A stretch of 37,117 nt of DNA from a virus: positions 1 to 37,117 of IMG/VR virus record IMGVR_UViG_3300042476_000424; one strand, 5' to 3'. Position numbers and translations under genes: made by a program. A model generated the notes under the pieces. It had not been told where the DNA came from and ran no database searches. It worked only from the letters and a program-made list of their open reading frames with translations. This document shows positions 5,889 to 19,184 of this stretch, one piece after another (the stretch's first letter is position 1; every line of letters begins with the position of its first letter).

Positions 5889-6041
5889 ATGGAAGTTATT
5901 ATTGCAAACAAGGAAGTCGTTCTAGGTTTATTGTGGGCACTGTCAGAGGTCCTTGCACTTGTCCCACAGGTTAAGGCCAATTCTGTATTTCAGCTTGTAG
6001 TTGGTATCCTTAAGAAAGTAAAAGAAGTTATTTCTAAATGA
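5889..6041 (+). CDS. Small hydrophobic protein, holin candidate
   Basis: 50 residues, with an AAGGAGA ribosome-binding site 5-6 bases before the ATG. One long hydrophobic stretch (VVLGLLWALSEVLALVPQV, about residues 10-28), a second weaker one (VFQLVVGILKKV) and a basic C-terminus (KKVKEVISK). Small size, two amphipathic or hydrophobic segments, a basic tail and position between endolysin and spanin-like genes fit a holin. The stop overlaps the next start. The assignment rests on context, as holins share little sequence. Confidence 0.6.
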   Translation: MEVIIANKEVVLGLLWALSEVLALVPQVKANSVFQLVVGILKKVKEVISK

Positions 6042-6298
6042 TGCAAGCAATCTCTTTAATTCTTGCATTGGCAAAAGCTCTCCCAATCATTGATAAGTGG
6101 CTGGGAGAGTTGTTTGCCGCCTACCTGGTTCAGAAGAGAAAAGAAGTTCAGGAAGCAACAGAAAGAGCAATTAATGAGGCAATTAAAAACCAAGATCAAA
6201 GACCTATTGAAAGTTCTCAAATATCTGGCAAGCCGTCCGGTTTGGGAAGTATTCGTGATTCTCTTCCTGGTGTCATGCGTGACAAGGGAAAGGATTAA
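6038..6298 (+). CDS. Inner-membrane spanin-like protein
   Basis: 86 residues, starting at tandem ATGs (6038 or 6041) overlapping the preceding stop. The N-terminal hydrophobic region is AISLILALAKALPIIDKWLG. A charged helical segment follows (QKRKEVQEATERAINEAIK, about residues 33-51), then a polar tail. An N-terminal membrane anchor plus coiled-coil helix is the layout of i-spanins (Rz). Support comes from a lipoprotein-like reading frame that begins inside this gene in another frame, as in many Rz/Rz1 pairs. The hydrophobic segment contains charged residues, so a holin or other membrane role is also possible. Confidence 0.5.
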   Translation: MMQAISLILALAKALPIIDKWLGELFAAYLVQKRKEVQEATERAINEAIKNQDQRPIESSQISGKPSGLGSIRDSLPGVMRDKGKD

Positions 6299-14362: not shown

Positions 14363-14428
14363 ATGAAAAACTACAAATCAGATCAGCCGTGTATTGTATG
14401 CGTACAAAATCAGAAGATTATTAAATGA
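14363..14428 (+). pseudogene. Truncated duplicate of the HNH gene 5' end
   Basis: A 21-residue frame, MKNYKSDQPCIVCVQNQKIIK. Its first 51 bases match the first 51 bases of the intact HNH gene at 14687 at 45 positions. The glycine after the second cysteine is V here and the frame ends eight codons later. The stop overlaps the start of the 91-residue gene at 14425 (ATGA). It looks like the leftover of a recombination or insertion event; it might still act as a leader peptide coupling translation of the next gene. Confidence 0.75.
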
Positions 14429-14700
14429 TAAGTAGTAGGATTGACCAAGCTATTGCAAATTTTGTTTTTAACAATGATTGTGTTGTCTCATTGTTGGTTA
14501 AGATAAAATCTGGACAAGTTACAGATGGTCAAAAAATAAGAGAAATTTACAGGAAACAATGGAAAGGTTTAAAAAATTTTAGCGAACTAATCTTTGCATT
14601 AAAAGAACTCAGTAAAATAAATATCTGCTTTATAGAAGAAATTAAACCACCAATAGGCAGACCATATTTGATTATTAGAATAAATAATGAAGAACTTTAA
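14425..14700 (+). CDS. Winged-helix protein related to primase/helicase C-termini
   Basis: 91 residues. The segment DGQKIREIYRKQWKGL, then FALKELSKINICFIEEI and PPIGRPYLIIRIN, follows the winged-helix pattern found at the C-terminus of DUF3987-type phage/plasmid primase-helicases ('IYRrgWkgL..v..al..L...gwi....  GRPs..i.iN'). Here it stands alone with no ATPase part. It may bind DNA or be the residue of a larger replication protein. It lies between a truncated and an intact copy of the same HNH start, overlapping both. Confidence 0.6.
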   Translation: MISSRIDQAIANFVFNNDCVVSLLVKIKSGQVTDGQKIREIYRKQWKGLKNFSELIFALKELSKINICFIEEIKPPIGRPYLIIRINNEEL

Positions 14701-14953
14701 ATCAGATCAACCATGTATTGTATGCGGACAAAATCAGGATAACATGGTCACATATCACCACATCTATAGTCGAAAAGCTTTTCCCGAGTTTGAATGTTCT
14801 AAGTGGAACATGATTCCAGTATGCCAGCCATGCCATTGTCTATTCCACTCACAAGGCAACCAATCAATGATGAAAAAATACATTTCAGTTAGAACTTGGA
14901 TGGAATTAAATGGTTGGGAAGTCTTCAACGGCAAGTTAATTCACAAAGATTGA
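14687..14953 (+). CDS. HNH endonuclease (small, zinc-binding)
   Basis: 88 residues. C10-x2-C13, then TYHHIYSRKAFPE (H24, H25), N41, and the second knuckle CQPCH (C46, C49, H50) with H54 follow the zinc-supported HNH layout. Such short HNH proteins in phages are nickases or accessory packaging nucleases, or selfish homing enzymes. The duplicated 5' end at 14363 and its position beside the ParB/PAPS cassette suggest a mobile history. It starts inside the end of the winged-helix gene. Confidence 0.8.
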   Translation: MKNFKSDQPCIVCGQNQDNMVTYHHIYSRKAFPEFECSKWNMIPVCQPCHCLFHSQGNQSMMKKYISVRTWMELNGWEVFNGKLIHKD

Positions 14954-14964
14954 TATAAATCCTA

Positions 14965-14981
14965 TTGACGAACCATGTAAA
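14965..14981. repeat. Left copy of a short repeat flanking the ParB/PAPS-reductase cassette
   Basis: TTGACGAACCATGTAAA. Apart from one inserted G it equals TTGACAACCATGTAAA at 17338-17353, and the base before each is A. The pair brackets the three-gene cassette exactly. Confidence 0.6.
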
Positions 14982-15045
14982 TATTTCAAAACCATAGAAT
15001 TAAAAAATTAAAATGATATAAATGGGAAAAAGCGAGGTTATATCT

Positions 15046-15720
15046 ATGAATTCAATAAATGATTTAATAATAGAAATTAGTTTAATTGAAGAGGTTGAAA
15101 AGAAAATAGAAATAATAAATCTGATAAAACAAAAACTTCATGAAATAAGCCCGTTTAAGCAAGAACCAGTTGATTGTGTAATTTGGGTGAAAAACTCAAG
15201 TGTTTCGGCAAACGAATACAATCCAAATAGTGTAGCACCACCAGAAATGAAACTCCTTGAGCATTCAATTATAGAGGATGGGTATACTCAGCCAATTGTT
15301 ACTTTTCCAAAAGGTGAAGGCTACGAGGTTATTGACGGATTTCATAGATCAAGAGTTGGTAAAGAATCTGAAGATGTTAAAAAAAGGGTTTTGGGCTATG
15401 TTCCAGTGGTTCGCATTAGAGAGTCTCAGGAAGACTTGAACCACAGAATGGCCTCAACGATAAGGCACAACAGAGCAAGAGGTAAGCACAAAGTAGAGGC
15501 GATGTCAGAGATTGTGATTGAATTAAAAAGAAGGAATTGGTCTGACTCTAAGATTGCTAAAAACCTGGGAATGGATGAAGACGAAGTTCTTAGGCTTTGC
15601 CAGATAACTGGAATGGCAGAACTTTTTGCTGATTCTGATTTTTCAAAAAGCTGGGACATTGGATTTGAAGAGACTCTTGAGGATTTCAACTTTGAGGAGG
15701 AGCTAGATGCAGAAAATTAA
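15046..15720 (+). CDS. ParB-like protein (IbrB/YbdM-type)
   Basis: 224 residues from ATG 15046, with GCGAGG eight bases upstream; ATG 15022 gives eight more residues but lacks such a site. An N-terminal helical region is followed by a ParB/sulfiredoxin-like domain: MKLLEHSIIEDGYTQPIV, then GYEVIDGFHRSRVG, then VPVVRI and LNHRMASTIRHNRARG. A helix-turn-helix follows (WSDSKIAKNLGMDEDEVLRL), then an acidic tail. ParB-like proteins of this type are encoded beside PAPS-reductase-like proteins (IbrA/IbrB pairs) in enterobacteria and phages. The partner lies one gene downstream. Confidence 0.8.
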   Translation: MNSINDLIIEISLIEEVEKKIEIINLIKQKLHEISPFKQEPVDCVIWVKNSSVSANEYNPNSVAPPEMKLLEHSIIEDGYTQPIVTFPKGEGYEVIDGFHRSRVGKESEDVKKRVLGYVPVVRIRESQEDLNHRMASTIRHNRARGKHKVEAMSEIVIELKRRNWSDSKIAKNLGMDEDEVLRLCQITGMAELFADSDFSKSWDIGFEETLEDFNFEEELDAEN

Positions 15721-16135
15721 AAGAATATATCACACATGGGACAAATGGGAATGTTTTCCAGCGGGATTCTATGAAAATAGCTTAAAAGGTAAAAACAAAG
15801 AAGAATGTGAGCAATTTTATGCAAACTTTTTAGCTGACTTACCAAGATTTGAAACTTCTTTAATTGGAGTAATTTCTGAATGGAAAAACTCATGCGAACA
15901 TTATCTTACGAACGAAAAGATGAACAGAATTGCATGGCTAGGGCAAGCATCAGTTTGTTTAGACTCTGGAATACCATCATGCTTTCGTTCTGGGTATTTT
16001 AAATTAACGCAACAACAAAGAGACTGTGCCGATAATCTTGCCTTGAAATATTTAAATATTTGGCTTACTAACAACAATTATCAAACAACAAACTTAGAGG
16101 GTGCCGGAGTTTCAGCCCAGGCAAATATTTACTAA
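15707..16135 (+). CDS. Conserved unknown protein between ParB-like and PAPS-reductase-like genes
   Basis: 142 residues with a strong GAGGAGGAG ribosome-binding site inside the end of the ParB gene. N-terminus YHTWDKWECFPAGFYEN, then NRIAWLGQASVCLDSGIPSC and RSGYFKLTQQQRDCADNLALKYLNIW. I recall similar proteins next to PAPS-reductase-like genes in other phages, so it is likely a third member of the same system. It carries six cysteines; no known catalytic motif. Its stop overlaps the next start by one base. Confidence 0.7.
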   Translation: MQKIKRIYHTWDKWECFPAGFYENSLKGKNKEECEQFYANFLADLPRFETSLIGVISEWKNSCEHYLTNEKMNRIAWLGQASVCLDSGIPSCFRSGYFKLTQQQRDCADNLALKYLNIWLTNNNYQTTNLEGAGVSAQANIY

Positions 16136-17352
16136 TGGGATCAAAAATTTACCGTGAAGATACAGTTTTAATTGCCTCTCAAAAAAGGATTAATCATGTT
16201 TTTGATTCTTTTGAAAAAATAGTTGTGAGCTTTTCTGGAGGGAAAGACAGTTCTGTCATGCTACATCTAATGGCGGACGAGGCTAGAAAAAGAAACAGAA
16301 AAATTGCCGTAATGATTATTGACCTAGAGGCGCAGTACAAGCAAACCATTGAACATCTTTCACAGATGCTTGAGTTTTATTCAGACATTATTGAACCATT
16401 TTGGATATGCCTTCCCATGAGTTTAAGAAATGCCTCAAGTAACTTTGAACCACGCTGGATATGTTGGGATGAAGAAAAGAGATCTGTTTGGGTCAGGGAG
16501 TTCCCAGAAACGTGCATAAAAGATCTTAACTATTTTCCATTTTTCCAAAAGGGCATGGAGTTTGAGGAGTTTATTGTTTTGTTTGCTGAGTGGTATGGGA
16601 AAGGAAAGCTTACTGCAACTATGGTTGGAATTAGAGCTGATGAAAGTTTAAATAGATATCGAACGGTAGCATCTAAGTCTTATCTTCGCAGAAAAGAAAT
16701 GTTTCAAAATCTTCCATGGACTACAAGGGTTATTGATAATGTCTATAACTGTTACCCAATATACGATTGGAAAACTTCAGATATTTGGGTTTATAAAAGA
16801 ATCACTAAAGATAGGCCACACAATAAAATATATGATCTAATGCACCAGGCAGGTGTCTCTCCTTCTCAACAAAGACTATGTCAACCATACGGTGATGATC
16901 AAAGAAGGGGTCTATGGTTGTATCATTTATTGGAACCAGAAACATGGTTTAAGGTGGTAGCAAGAGTTTCAGGGGCGAATGGTATGGCACTCTACGTAGA
17001 AGAAAATGGAAATATTACAGGTTACAATAAAATAAAAAAACCAGAAGGACACACTTACAAGAGTTTTTGTCACCTTTTGCTCACTACAATGCCAAAAAAA
17101 TCAAGAGACCACTTCTTAAAAAGATTCAGGACATTTGTTATTGGTTGGAGGAAAAGGGGGTACAATGATGATATACCAGATGAGGCACCATATGTTCTTG
17201 AATCAAAACACTGGGCACCATCTTATAGAAGATTATGCAAATGCCTATTAAGAAATGACTACTGGTGCAAAGGCTTAGGTTTAACACAACCAAAGTCTGA
17301 AGCATATGGTAGGTATCTTGACATTAAAAAAGAAAAATTGACAACCATGTAA
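16135..17352 (+). CDS. PAPS-reductase-like ATP pyrophosphatase (IbrA/YbdN-type)
   Basis: 405 residues. The PP-loop SFSGGKDSS at 32-40 is that of the PAPS reductase / N-type ATP pyrophosphatase superfamily. VGIRADESLNRYRT and YPIYDWKTSDIW are typical of the DUF3440-containing IbrA/YbdN group, and the cysteine-rich C-terminus (RRLCKCLLRNDYWCKG) fits. It probably adenylates a substrate; the substrate is unknown. IbrA-IbrB is known as a regulatory pair in pathogenic E. coli, while relatives such as DndC act in DNA sulfur modification. Which, if either, applies here is open. Confidence 0.85.
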   Translation: MGSKIYREDTVLIASQKRINHVFDSFEKIVVSFSGGKDSSVMLHLMADEARKRNRKIAVMIIDLEAQYKQTIEHLSQMLEFYSDIIEPFWICLPMSLRNASSNFEPRWICWDEEKRSVWVREFPETCIKDLNYFPFFQKGMEFEEFIVLFAEWYGKGKLTATMVGIRADESLNRYRTVASKSYLRRKEMFQNLPWTTRVIDNVYNCYPIYDWKTSDIWVYKRITKDRPHNKIYDLMHQAGVSPSQQRLCQPYGDDQRRGLWLYHLLEPETWFKVVARVSGANGMALYVEENGNITGYNKIKKPEGHTYKSFCHLLLTTMPKKSRDHFLKRFRTFVIGWRKRGYNDDIPDEAPYVLESKHWAPSYRRLCKCLLRNDYWCKGLGLTQPKSEAYGRYLDIKKEKLTTM

Positions 17353-17353
17353 A
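17338..17353. repeat. Right copy of cassette-flanking short repeat
   Basis: TTGACAACCATGTAAA, forming the last codons of the PAPS-reductase-like gene (L-T-T-M-stop). It matches 14965-14981 except for one missing G. The TTGACA looks like a -35 box, but I find no -10 at proper spacing. Confidence 0.6.
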
Positions 17354-17365
17354 ACTTACAATACG

Positions 17366-17404
17366 CTGAGTAAAAGACCCTGTGGGTCACAACATTTTAC
17401 TCGG
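17366..17404. other. Nested dyad element upstream of terminase genes (packaging-site candidate)
   Basis: The outer stem CTGAGTAAAA (17366-17375) pairs with TTTTACTCGG (17395-17404), ten pairs with one G-T. Inside it, GACCC-TGT-GGGTC (17376-17388) is a second perfect stem, followed by a six-base bulge ACAACA. No T-run follows, so a rho-independent terminator is unlikely. Position just before the small-terminase genes is where cos or pac sites often lie, so a cos/pac site or terminase-binding site is the leading guess. A leader hairpin for the late operon is the alternative. Confidence 0.5.
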
Positions 17405-17411
17405 TGGGTAA

Positions 17412-17618
17412 GTGGTTTATACTGAAATTGGAAGCATTGAAGCTTTATTGTCATCAATTACAACGCTAAAGGATGGCAGTTGTAAAATCTCATTTGAAGT
17501 AAACCCAGAAAACATTGAAGTAATTAACACCTTAATGAGTAAGTTTTTAATAGGGCAGAAGCTTTTTACGCTTGGCATTGTGCAATGCGAAGAAAGCAGG
17601 GGTGCAGCAGATGAGTAA
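17412..17618 (+). CDS. Unknown conserved-looking protein before terminase small subunit
   Basis: 68 residues from a GTG start with GGTGGG upstream. The sequence SCKISFEVNPENIEVINTLM resembles small phage proteins of two beta strands plus a helix that limit or regulate neighbours, but I cannot name the family. The C-terminus (GIVQCEESRGAADE) overlaps the next gene by eight bases. Confidence 0.6.
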   Translation: MVYTEIGSIEALLSSITTLKDGSCKISFEVNPENIEVINTLMSKFLIGQKLFTLGIVQCEESRGAADE

Positions 17619-17919
17619 ATGGGTTAAGGGTCAATCGGGTAACCCAGCAGGGGCAAGAAAAACAGCTTATAAAGAAAACTTTGATCAGCTAATGGCTAAG
17701 AAGAAGATGTTTGATGAAGCATCTCAGATTCTTTCTGAGCGCTGGTCAGATATTTATCATTCAATGTGTGATTGTGCCGAGGCTGGGAATGTCCAGGCAG
17801 CTACATTTGTTTCGAGTTATGTCCTAGGTAAACCAAAAGAAACCATTGAGCATGATGTTAGTGATGATCTTAAAAAGTCTATTCATATTTCAATTATCAA
17901 GGATGAGTCAGACCTGTGA
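17611..17919 (+). CDS. Terminase small subunit candidate (DUF5681-like start)
   Basis: 102 residues from ATG 17611. N-terminus SKWVKGQSGNPAGARKTAYK carries the 'KGQSGNPxG' motif of the DUF5681 family, often adjacent to terminase genes. The rest is helical (MFDEASQILSERWSDIYHSM, CAEAGNVQAATFVSSYVLGKP) with a charged C-terminus, as in small terminase subunits that bind the packaging site. The large subunit follows with a four-base overlap. Confidence 0.72.
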   Translation: MSKWVKGQSGNPAGARKTAYKENFDQLMAKKKMFDEASQILSERWSDIYHSMCDCAEAGNVQAATFVSSYVLGKPKETIEHDVSDDLKKSIHISIIKDESDL

Positions 17920-19184
17920 GTGAATTTAGACTAACTCCAAAACAAATGGAGGCAGTTAAGATTCTTTCATCAGATGCCAGGCACATAATGTTGTTTGGTG
18001 GATCGAGGTCAGGTAAGACCTTTTTAGCTGTTAGGTCACTAATTATTAGGGCATCAAAAGAAAAGTCACGTCACGCCATATTAAGGCTTAACTTCAACCA
18101 CATTAAAACATCAATCTGGTTAGACACATTACCAAAAGTCTTAAAGGTTTCATTCCCTGATCTTGCAGTAGATTGGAATAAGTCTGACTTTTACATAACA
18201 CTTCCAAACGGATCAGAAATCTGGTGCGCTGGCCTTGATGATGAAAAGCGAGTGGAGAAAATTTTAGGTAAAGAATATTCAACACTATACTTTAATGAAT
18301 GTTCTCAGATTCCATATAAGTCAATTCAAGTGGCACTTACTCGACTAGCTGAGAAGAACAATCTTAAAAAGAAAGCTTACTACGATCAGAATCCGCCATC
18401 TAAAAAGCATTGGTCTTACTGGTTATTTCAAAAGCATCTAGACCCAGTTGATAACGTGCCGGTTGATCCTAATAAGTATTCATCAATCTTAATGAACCCA
18501 AAAGATAATCTGGAAAATATTGACCCTGAATACATATCAGAGATTCTTGATAATCTTCCAGAAGCTCAAAGAAAGCGGTTTAAGGACGGAGAGTTTGGAG
18601 AAGATAGTGATGGTGCAGCTTACTACGCTTTTGATCGTGAAAAACACGTTAAGGATATTGATAAGTCTTTCCAGGTAGGTCAGAGATGTATTGGAATGGA
18701 CTTCAATGTCCAGCCAATGACTGCGGTTATCGGGCATTATATTAATAAGAAGTTTTATGTAATGTCAGAAGCATTCTTGGAAAACTCAGATACATTCAAA
18801 ATGTCGACACACCTAATCAAGAATGGTCATAAAGGTGCTAACATTTATCCCGATTCGACTGGCTCTAATAGAAAAACGTCAGGGATCTCAGATCATCAGA
18901 TTTTAAAAAATGATGGCTTTAATATTCAATCAACTAGAAACCCACTGGTGGTTGACCGAGTGAATAATATCAATAGACTATTAAGAGAAGAGAGAATTAT
19001 CATTGATCCATCGTGCAGAAAGCTTATTAATGATCTCGAAAAGGTTTCTTGGAAAGACGGTGCACTAGATCAAAAGACAGACAAAATGGTAACACACATT
19101 TCAGATGCTCTTGGTTATTGGTGTTGGGCACTTGAGCCTCTTAAGATAGAATACAATTTAACTCCAATTACTAAAGTGAGATAA
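17916..19184 (+). CDS. terL: Terminase large subunit
   Basis: 422 residues from GTG 17916. It packages DNA into the prohead with its ATPase and cuts concatemers with its nuclease. Walker A is GGSRSGKT (28-35) and Walker B is LYFNE (124-128). The RNase H-like nuclease carboxylates are likely D262 (GMDFN), D313 (YPDST) and D397 (HISDALGY). It is full length for a phage-terminase of the Terminase_3/6 kind, and starts inside the end of the small-subunit gene. Confidence 0.95.
   Translation: MSEFRLTPKQMEAVKILSSDARHIMLFGGSRSGKTFLAVRSLIIRASKEKSRHAILRLNFNHIKTSIWLDTLPKVLKVSFPDLAVDWNKSDFYITLPNGSEIWCAGLDDEKRVEKILGKEYSTLYFNECSQIPYKSIQVALTRLAEKNNLKKKAYYDQNPPSKKHWSYWLFQKHLDPVDNVPVDPNKYSSILMNPKDNLENIDPEYISEILDNLPEAQRKRFKDGEFGEDSDGAAYYAFDREKHVKDIDKSFQVGQRCIGMDFNVQPMTAVIGHYINKKFYVMSEAFLENSDTFKMSTHLIKNGHKGANIYPDSTGSNRKTSGISDHQILKNDGFNIQSTRNPLVVDRVNNINRLLREERIIIDPSCRKLINDLEKVSWKDGALDQKTDKMVTHISDALGYWCWALEPLKIEYNLTPITKVR

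Follow-up and report, generated by a model that had tools for sequence, protein, structure and literature searches.

An acquired IbrB-Mid-IbrA cassette in the pre-terminase slot of a virus as a candidate phage DNA-modification module

The DNA analysed in this study, referred to as the window, is the complete IMG/VR record IMGVR_UViG_3300042476_000424 with a length of 37,117 bases. At positions 15022-17352 it carries a cassette of three genes in the order IbrB-Mid-IbrA, all on the + strand, which we interpret as an acquired phage module that probably modifies the phage's own DNA and so marks it against host defences. We favour this reading because, in two phage groups that are not related to each other, the slot occupied by the cassette holds genes predicted or proven to modify DNA.

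The open reading frames of IbrB (15022-15720), Mid (15707-16135) and IbrA (16135-17352) overlap by 14 nt and 1 nt, respectively. Mid has a strong Shine-Dalgarno sequence (GAGGAGG) upstream, whereas ibrA has none and shares a TAATG junction with Mid, to which its translation is probably coupled. When the window was compared with its homologues L001 and L002, pS was 0.74-0.82 and pN 0.14-0.23 for ibrB, mid and ibrA, a signature of purifying selection. Since pN is far below pS, all three are real genes. Together with the reading frames, their overlaps and the family matches, this confirms the ParB-like, unknown and PAPS-reductase-like cassette of overlapping genes that the first-pass annotation of this DNA had recognised.

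IbrB is a ParB/Srx-type protein (phrog_2159, E 1.3e-70) that matches Spo0J/ParB structures in sequence searches, while its match to the Pfam family ParB_N (E 2.3e-4) is under the curated cut-off. The residues of its motifs DGFHR and TIRHNRARGKH are invariant across 47 homologues. The true start is probably the ATG at 15046, giving 224 aa, and not 15022, because a GAGG lies upstream of it and the homology to L001 begins there. IbrA is a PP-loop ATP-pyrophosphatase-type protein of the PAPS-reductase superfamily with a DUF3440 domain, as assigned by Pfam, PHROGs (phrog_2302, E 2.1e-81) and an AF2 model (pLDDT 82), in which approximately residues 1-260 match, with Z 12-15, the PP-loop fold of PAPS/APS reductases, ATP sulfurylase and FAD synthase. 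It carries the PP-loop SGGKDS and an invariant cysteine, C249. Its Pfam matches to PAPS_reduct (2.1e-14) and DUF3440 (6.6e-33), both above cut-off, and the adjacent phrog_2159 partner identify the two genes as an IbrA/IbrB pair. IbrA and IbrB of E. coli and its prophages belong to the same two families and share about 42% and 52% identity with the window proteins, but they are arranged in the order IbrA-IbrB and lack Mid.

Mid is an all-helical protein of 142 aa. In an alignment of 46 homologues, R6, H9, W14, E15, W59, S62, E64, N73, R74, G79 and Q80 are invariant, and C16, C63, H65 and C84 nearly so. The latter four residues are near-invariant in the main clade and not jointly kept in L082 and L083, and metal binding is accordingly not claimed here. 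No confident family match was obtained in Pfam, PHROGs, NCBIfam or PADLOC. Structure prediction, which had been proposed as a check, gave a confident helical model (pLDDT 93.3, pTM 0.88) and no PDB fold match with E below 1 (best Z 2.9). The single good match in a BFVD fold search was A0A649V0K8, which, given the equal length, is probably the Pseudoalteromonas XCL1123 homologue. Mid is conserved and, as judged from these comparisons, probably represents an undescribed protein family, in agreement with the first-pass annotation.

When viral contigs were scanned with Mid, 105 matches were obtained, and 80 loci were kept. IbrB is located immediately upstream and IbrA immediately downstream of Mid in all 80, and the co-occurrence survey suggested earlier found all three genes at 97/97 Mid loci, consisting of these 80, a Microcystis phage and 16 more distant loci of the Amjad_SA type. 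A single open reading frame encodes both IbrB and Mid at 37 of these 80 loci and at 19 of the 49 non-redundant ones. Only six relatives of Mid were found in 84,980 species genomes, so that Mid is mainly a phage gene. Among the records of isolated phages, IbrA occurs in 216 and IbrB in 219, with matching organism counts, and Mid in 6. Mid is consequently missing from most IbrA/IbrB pairs there, an outcome that the first-pass annotation had named, jointly with unmodified DNA and an unchanged host range upon deletion, as refuting its reading; yet it is present at 80/80 of the closest IbrA loci. At E. coli-type IbrA loci, Mid was not found in 23 of 25. Gene order is also variable, being Mid-IbrA-IbrB in L161 and L230. 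On a tree of 55 IbrA sequences, the presence of Mid requires 4 changes as opposed to 16.6 in shuffles, which is why Mid is regarded as a clade-linked third subunit and not as part of the IbrA/IbrB core.

The cassette lies between an HNH endonuclease gene (14687-14953, +), the left neighbour of the cargo slot, and the terminase operon. The operon is opened by a small gene, dn1 (17412-17618, +), followed by a probable small terminase subunit (17572-17919, +; DUF5681 family match, true start likely near 17613) and the large subunit TerL (17916-19184, +; Terminase_3 E 3e-17, phrog_979 E 3.8e-39), the right anchor of the slot. The initial 51 nt of this HNH gene occur twice (14363-14413 and 14687-14737, 324 nt apart, 88% identical), which suggests that part of it was duplicated or that an insertion of the homing type took place upstream. 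In L093, the HNH gene is 75%, dn1 87% and TerL 92% identical to the window, and the HNH gene is followed by a short segment containing a minus-strand open reading frame, a single TTGACTAACCATGTAAA and dn1-TerS-TerL, without the cassette. Because this close relative has one repeat copy and no cassette at the same site, the cassette is considered acquired cargo, and the self-contained, moron-like unit proposed at first pass is supported in this respect.

The repeat flanking the cassette consists of an upstream copy, ATTGACGAACCATGTAAA (14964-14981, +), and a downstream copy, ATTGACAACCATGTAAA (17337-17353), which differ by one G. The score of the two-flank alignment beats 300/300 shuffles and was matched by 1/400 random segment pairs from the window. 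The downstream copy, which overlaps the last ibrA codons and precedes the terminase operon, is part of a promoter-like element, TTGACA-N18-TACGCT (17338-17367, +), kept in L093, L098 and L101-L105. As cassette-free relatives also carry it, the upstream copy is the only one that indicates the insertion. Comparison with these relatives shows the repeat to be chiefly a promoter-like element that belongs to the terminase operon, and not a pair of cassette-specific ends; the view that the cassette has repeat boundaries of its own is therefore abandoned, and an interpretation as mobile-element ends was rejected for the same reason. A loose version of the pattern (TTGAC-N17/18-TANNNT) was found within 1.5 kb before TerL in 13/42 loci versus 19/318 control windows, although some of these 13 are unlike the window element, whose conservation rests on near relatives. 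The upstream copy and its flank resemble the single copy of L093, and the upstream copy also those of cassette-free L105 and of L101, while the downstream copy resembles that of the cassette-bearing L098. The simplest account we infer from this pattern is that the cassette was exchanged by recombination within the shared promoter-like element. Between this element and the terminase operon, a hairpin is predicted, GAGTAAAAGACCC-TGT-GGGTC-ACAACA-TTTTACTC (17368-17402, +), for which an Rfam search gave no match; a packaging site is one possible role, an attenuator another. Its stem is GACCC/GGGTC in the window and L098, and GAGTC/GACTC in L093, L101 and L103, that is, the changes are paired.

The content of the slot was surveyed in 37 TerL relatives whose upstream sequence spans 1.9 kb or more, not counting the window, by searching for four gene classes. 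ParB-DNA-methyltransferase fusions account for 18 of the slots, N4/N6 methyltransferases for 3 and IbrB-Mid-IbrA for 2; none of the four classes was detected in the remaining 14, some of which are distant TerL relatives. Two kinds of cargo were never combined in one slot (0/37). The fusions match the Pfam families N6_N4_Mtase and ParB_N, and L101 and L102 carry a methyltransferase at the same point at which L105 has none. The fusions (phrog_498 type) thus resemble the window cassette in occupying the same pre-terminase slot and in combining a ParB-type domain with a modifying enzyme, but a methyltransferase takes the place of the PP-loop enzyme and Mid is absent.

A second lineage with a comparable slot is formed by the Cluster B mycobacteriophages, whose left end consists of a ParB-like gp1, cargo and the terminase, with the exception of Colbert, which has TerS-TerL alone without gp1 or cargo. 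The subclusters have homologous gp1 proteins (46-76%) and TerL in common. In LizLemon (Rosebushvirus) and Quesadilla, the cargo is annotated as TGT-QueC-QueD-QueE-GCH1; for the TGT of LizLemon, which gave no Pfam or PDB match, the identity is taken from the record and the literature (PMC6884629). In Rosebush DNA, dPreQ0 was found at about 28% of G (PMC6884629). The cargo of Zemanar (L270, 785-1759) and LilMcDreamy (L272, 855-1787) is a TET/JBP-like gene, gp2, whose product matches Tet_JBP below the curated cut-off (E 5.1e-8 and 2.7e-5); in view of this weak match, the annotation of these proteins as TGT (queuine tRNA-ribosyltransferase) was not accepted. They also gave very weak matches to structures of Tet-like dioxygenases. 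In Phlyer and Akoma, the cargo is IbrA-IbrB. The Phlyer proteins belong to the same PHROGs as those of the window (2302 and 2159), although its IbrA is divergent and has no DUF3440 match, and Mid is absent. The Rosebush-type preQ0 operon and the Phlyer pair thus share the position between gp1 and TerL, and QueC is likewise a PP-loop enzyme, whereas TGT, QueC/D/E and GTP cyclohydrolase have no counterpart in the window cassette. In Arthrobacter phage Wheelbite, the annotated order is IbrA-IbrB-"methyltransferase"-TerS-TerL, and a gp1-type ParB precedes IbrA, as it does more distantly in Bacillus phage 031MP002 and Rhizobium phage L338C. In L338C, the gene beside IbrA that is annotated as "DNA methyltransferase" (L268, 3245-3940) encodes a ParB-domain protein in which no methyltransferase domain is present, and it was excluded from the evidence. 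ParB-domain genes have also been reported beside other phage DNA-hypermodification genes (PMC12783734).

According to the mechanism that we propose, IbrB would act as a ParB/Srx-type NTP-binding protein that recognises phage DNA or is loaded onto it, with Mid attached. Mid, which many phages encode as a fusion with IbrB and most encode next to IbrA, would be the bridge, a helical subunit docking IbrA. Many enzymes of the PP-loop superfamily use ATP to activate a group prior to the transfer of sulfur or nitrogen. With its PP-loop, IbrA would adenylate a DNA position or a small group for attachment, a sulfur- or nitrogen-containing group would be installed in the DNA, and the marked phage DNA would resist host nucleases. 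The sequence comparisons show that the three genes are inherited together, that IbrB and Mid can be fused, that the PP-loop motif is intact, that the cassette was acquired as cargo and that known or predicted DNA-modification genes take its place at the same locus. Complex formation, the chemistry and the protective effect are inferred here, as is DNA as the substrate of IbrA, for which we rely on the position in the slot. DNA modification, one of the options raised at first pass, is the best reading of the slot evidence, while modification of nucleotides is retained as a rival below. Several points argue against DNA modification: few methyltransferases occur near Mid loci, where the Pfam analysis of 82 neighbouring open reading frames gave one C5 DNA methylase and a name-pattern search for methyltransferases flagged none; cysteine desulfurase, DndD, DndE and TGT are missing from the 25 commonest families of these neighbours; many Mid loci are surrounded by replication or recombination genes, so that the slot argument is drawn from two lineages; Phlyer IbrA is divergent and has no Mid beside it; the role described for E. 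coli IbrAB is that of a co-activator; 14 of the 37 slots gave no detection; and cargo slots also exchange unrelated genes. No paper assigning IbrAB to DNA modification was found in a literature search that did not extend to the IbrAB paper of 2002 or to the survey of base-modification systems in NAR from 2013, so an earlier proposal is possible.

It is unlikely, but deserves consideration, that the cassette encodes a transcriptional co-activator set, in which IbrB is the DNA-binding component, modulated by IbrA and Mid, and late genes, for instance the adjacent terminase operon, are switched on. E. coli IbrAB, whose name and annotation agree with such a role, is reportedly an activator (co-activator) of eib prophage genes, and we know of no enzymology for either protein. 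A weak HTH match in residues 153-190 of IbrB and the location of the cassette directly before the terminase operon in both the window and Phlyer point in the same direction. However, the PP-loop SGGKD[ST] is retained in 38/39 IbrA sequences, the promoter-like element and the terminase operon are retained unchanged in kind by cassette-free relatives, and most Mid loci are not beside a terminase, many of them being situated among replication or recombination genes.

The fold of IbrA leads to another rather improbable reading, a module for counter-defence or host takeover whose targets would be RNA or nucleotides, for example through tRNA thiolation or an altered dNTP, and not phage DNA directly. 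Folds similar to that of IbrA include the tRNA thiolases NcsA and TtuA as well as TilS and FAD synthase. Against this, the cassette exchanges at one locus with DNA methyltransferases and a measured DNA-modification operon, and its constant partner is a ParB-type protein.

That the acquired cassette acts on other phages, as defence or superinfection-exclusion cargo, is very unlikely. PADLOC detected distant matches of IbrA to DndC, BrxP and SspD, but these are far below family level, IbrB and Mid gave no match, and the cassette has no nuclease or toxin partner. Dnd and the Ssp/BREX-4 phosphorothioation systems do resemble the window in having a PAPS-reductase-like PP-loop enzyme (DndC, SspD, BrxP), and DndB of the Dnd system belongs to the ParB superfamily. 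IbrA, by contrast, is a separate DUF3440 family with a DndC match of only E 6e-7, and against the DndC equivalog TIGR03183 it scored 26.3 bits (E 3.3e-6), short of the cut-off of 290.4 bits. DndA, DndD and DndE were found neither beside the cassette, where the neighbours searched are HNH, phage and terminase genes, nor among the 25 commonest families of the 82 neighbours of Mid loci, and membership in Dnd was rejected owing to the low score and the missing partners. Finally, an auxiliary metabolic gene of the CysH type that serves assimilatory sulfate reduction, as implied by the PAPS reductase annotation in PHROGs and many phage records, was rejected as a scarcely credible explanation, since the catalytic-cysteine motif of CysH (ECG[IL]H type), searched as CG[ILMVF]H, is missing in all 39 IbrA sequences and the ParB-type partner, in this clade together with Mid, is constant.

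Returning to DNA modification, IbrA-IbrB is found in several variants. A stand-alone C-terminal piece of IbrA lies directly 3' of Mid in L260 (Nebkiss, 5937-6137), L083 (3748-4104) and L127 (1189-1434). A full IbrA is additionally present in L260 and L083, and the idea that the short IbrA of L127 is a truncation was dropped, as both carry the same piece after Mid. In these three loci, an ectoine-synthase-like cupin is fused to or located beside IbrB (L260, 4299-5195, Nebkiss gp104; L127, 2-859; L083, 2584-2973), with fusion in Nebkiss and Gaia, and this variant might point to dehydration or cyclisation as one of the steps. An SNF2-type helicase of 389-403 aa adjoins IbrA-IbrB in phages of Lactobacillus (L261, 1842-3008), Flavobacterium (L262, 1243-2451) and Fusobacterium (L263, 5162-6355), in which no Mid was found. 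At the Mid locus L019, IbrA is fused to an N6_N4 DNA methyltransferase (Pfam). This fusion, the gene order of Wheelbite and the cupin fusions of Nebkiss and Gaia count in favour of DNA modification. In Microbacterium phage Rasputia (L267, 80-5137), three glycosyltransferases, an acetyltransferase and a methyltransferase are annotated before a DUF3440 PAPS-reductase-like gene.

It is conceivable, with a likelihood that we place somewhat below even, that IbrA-IbrB, with Mid or other partners such as the SNF2-type helicase, the cupin or a methyltransferase, constitutes a widespread, unrecognised family of phage DNA hypermodification with new chemistry, to which many viral DUF3440-type "CysH sulfate-reduction" genes would belong. 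If this is true, hundreds of phage records, among them those of M. smegmatis phages, would contain a DNA-modification system in the form of a pair described as a prophage co-activator or assigned to sulfate metabolism. Mid would add a third subunit without a known fold, suggesting new DNA chemistry, and the viral "PAPS reductase" genes of ecological surveys would need to be re-read, which would give these "sulfate reductase" genes a testable role.
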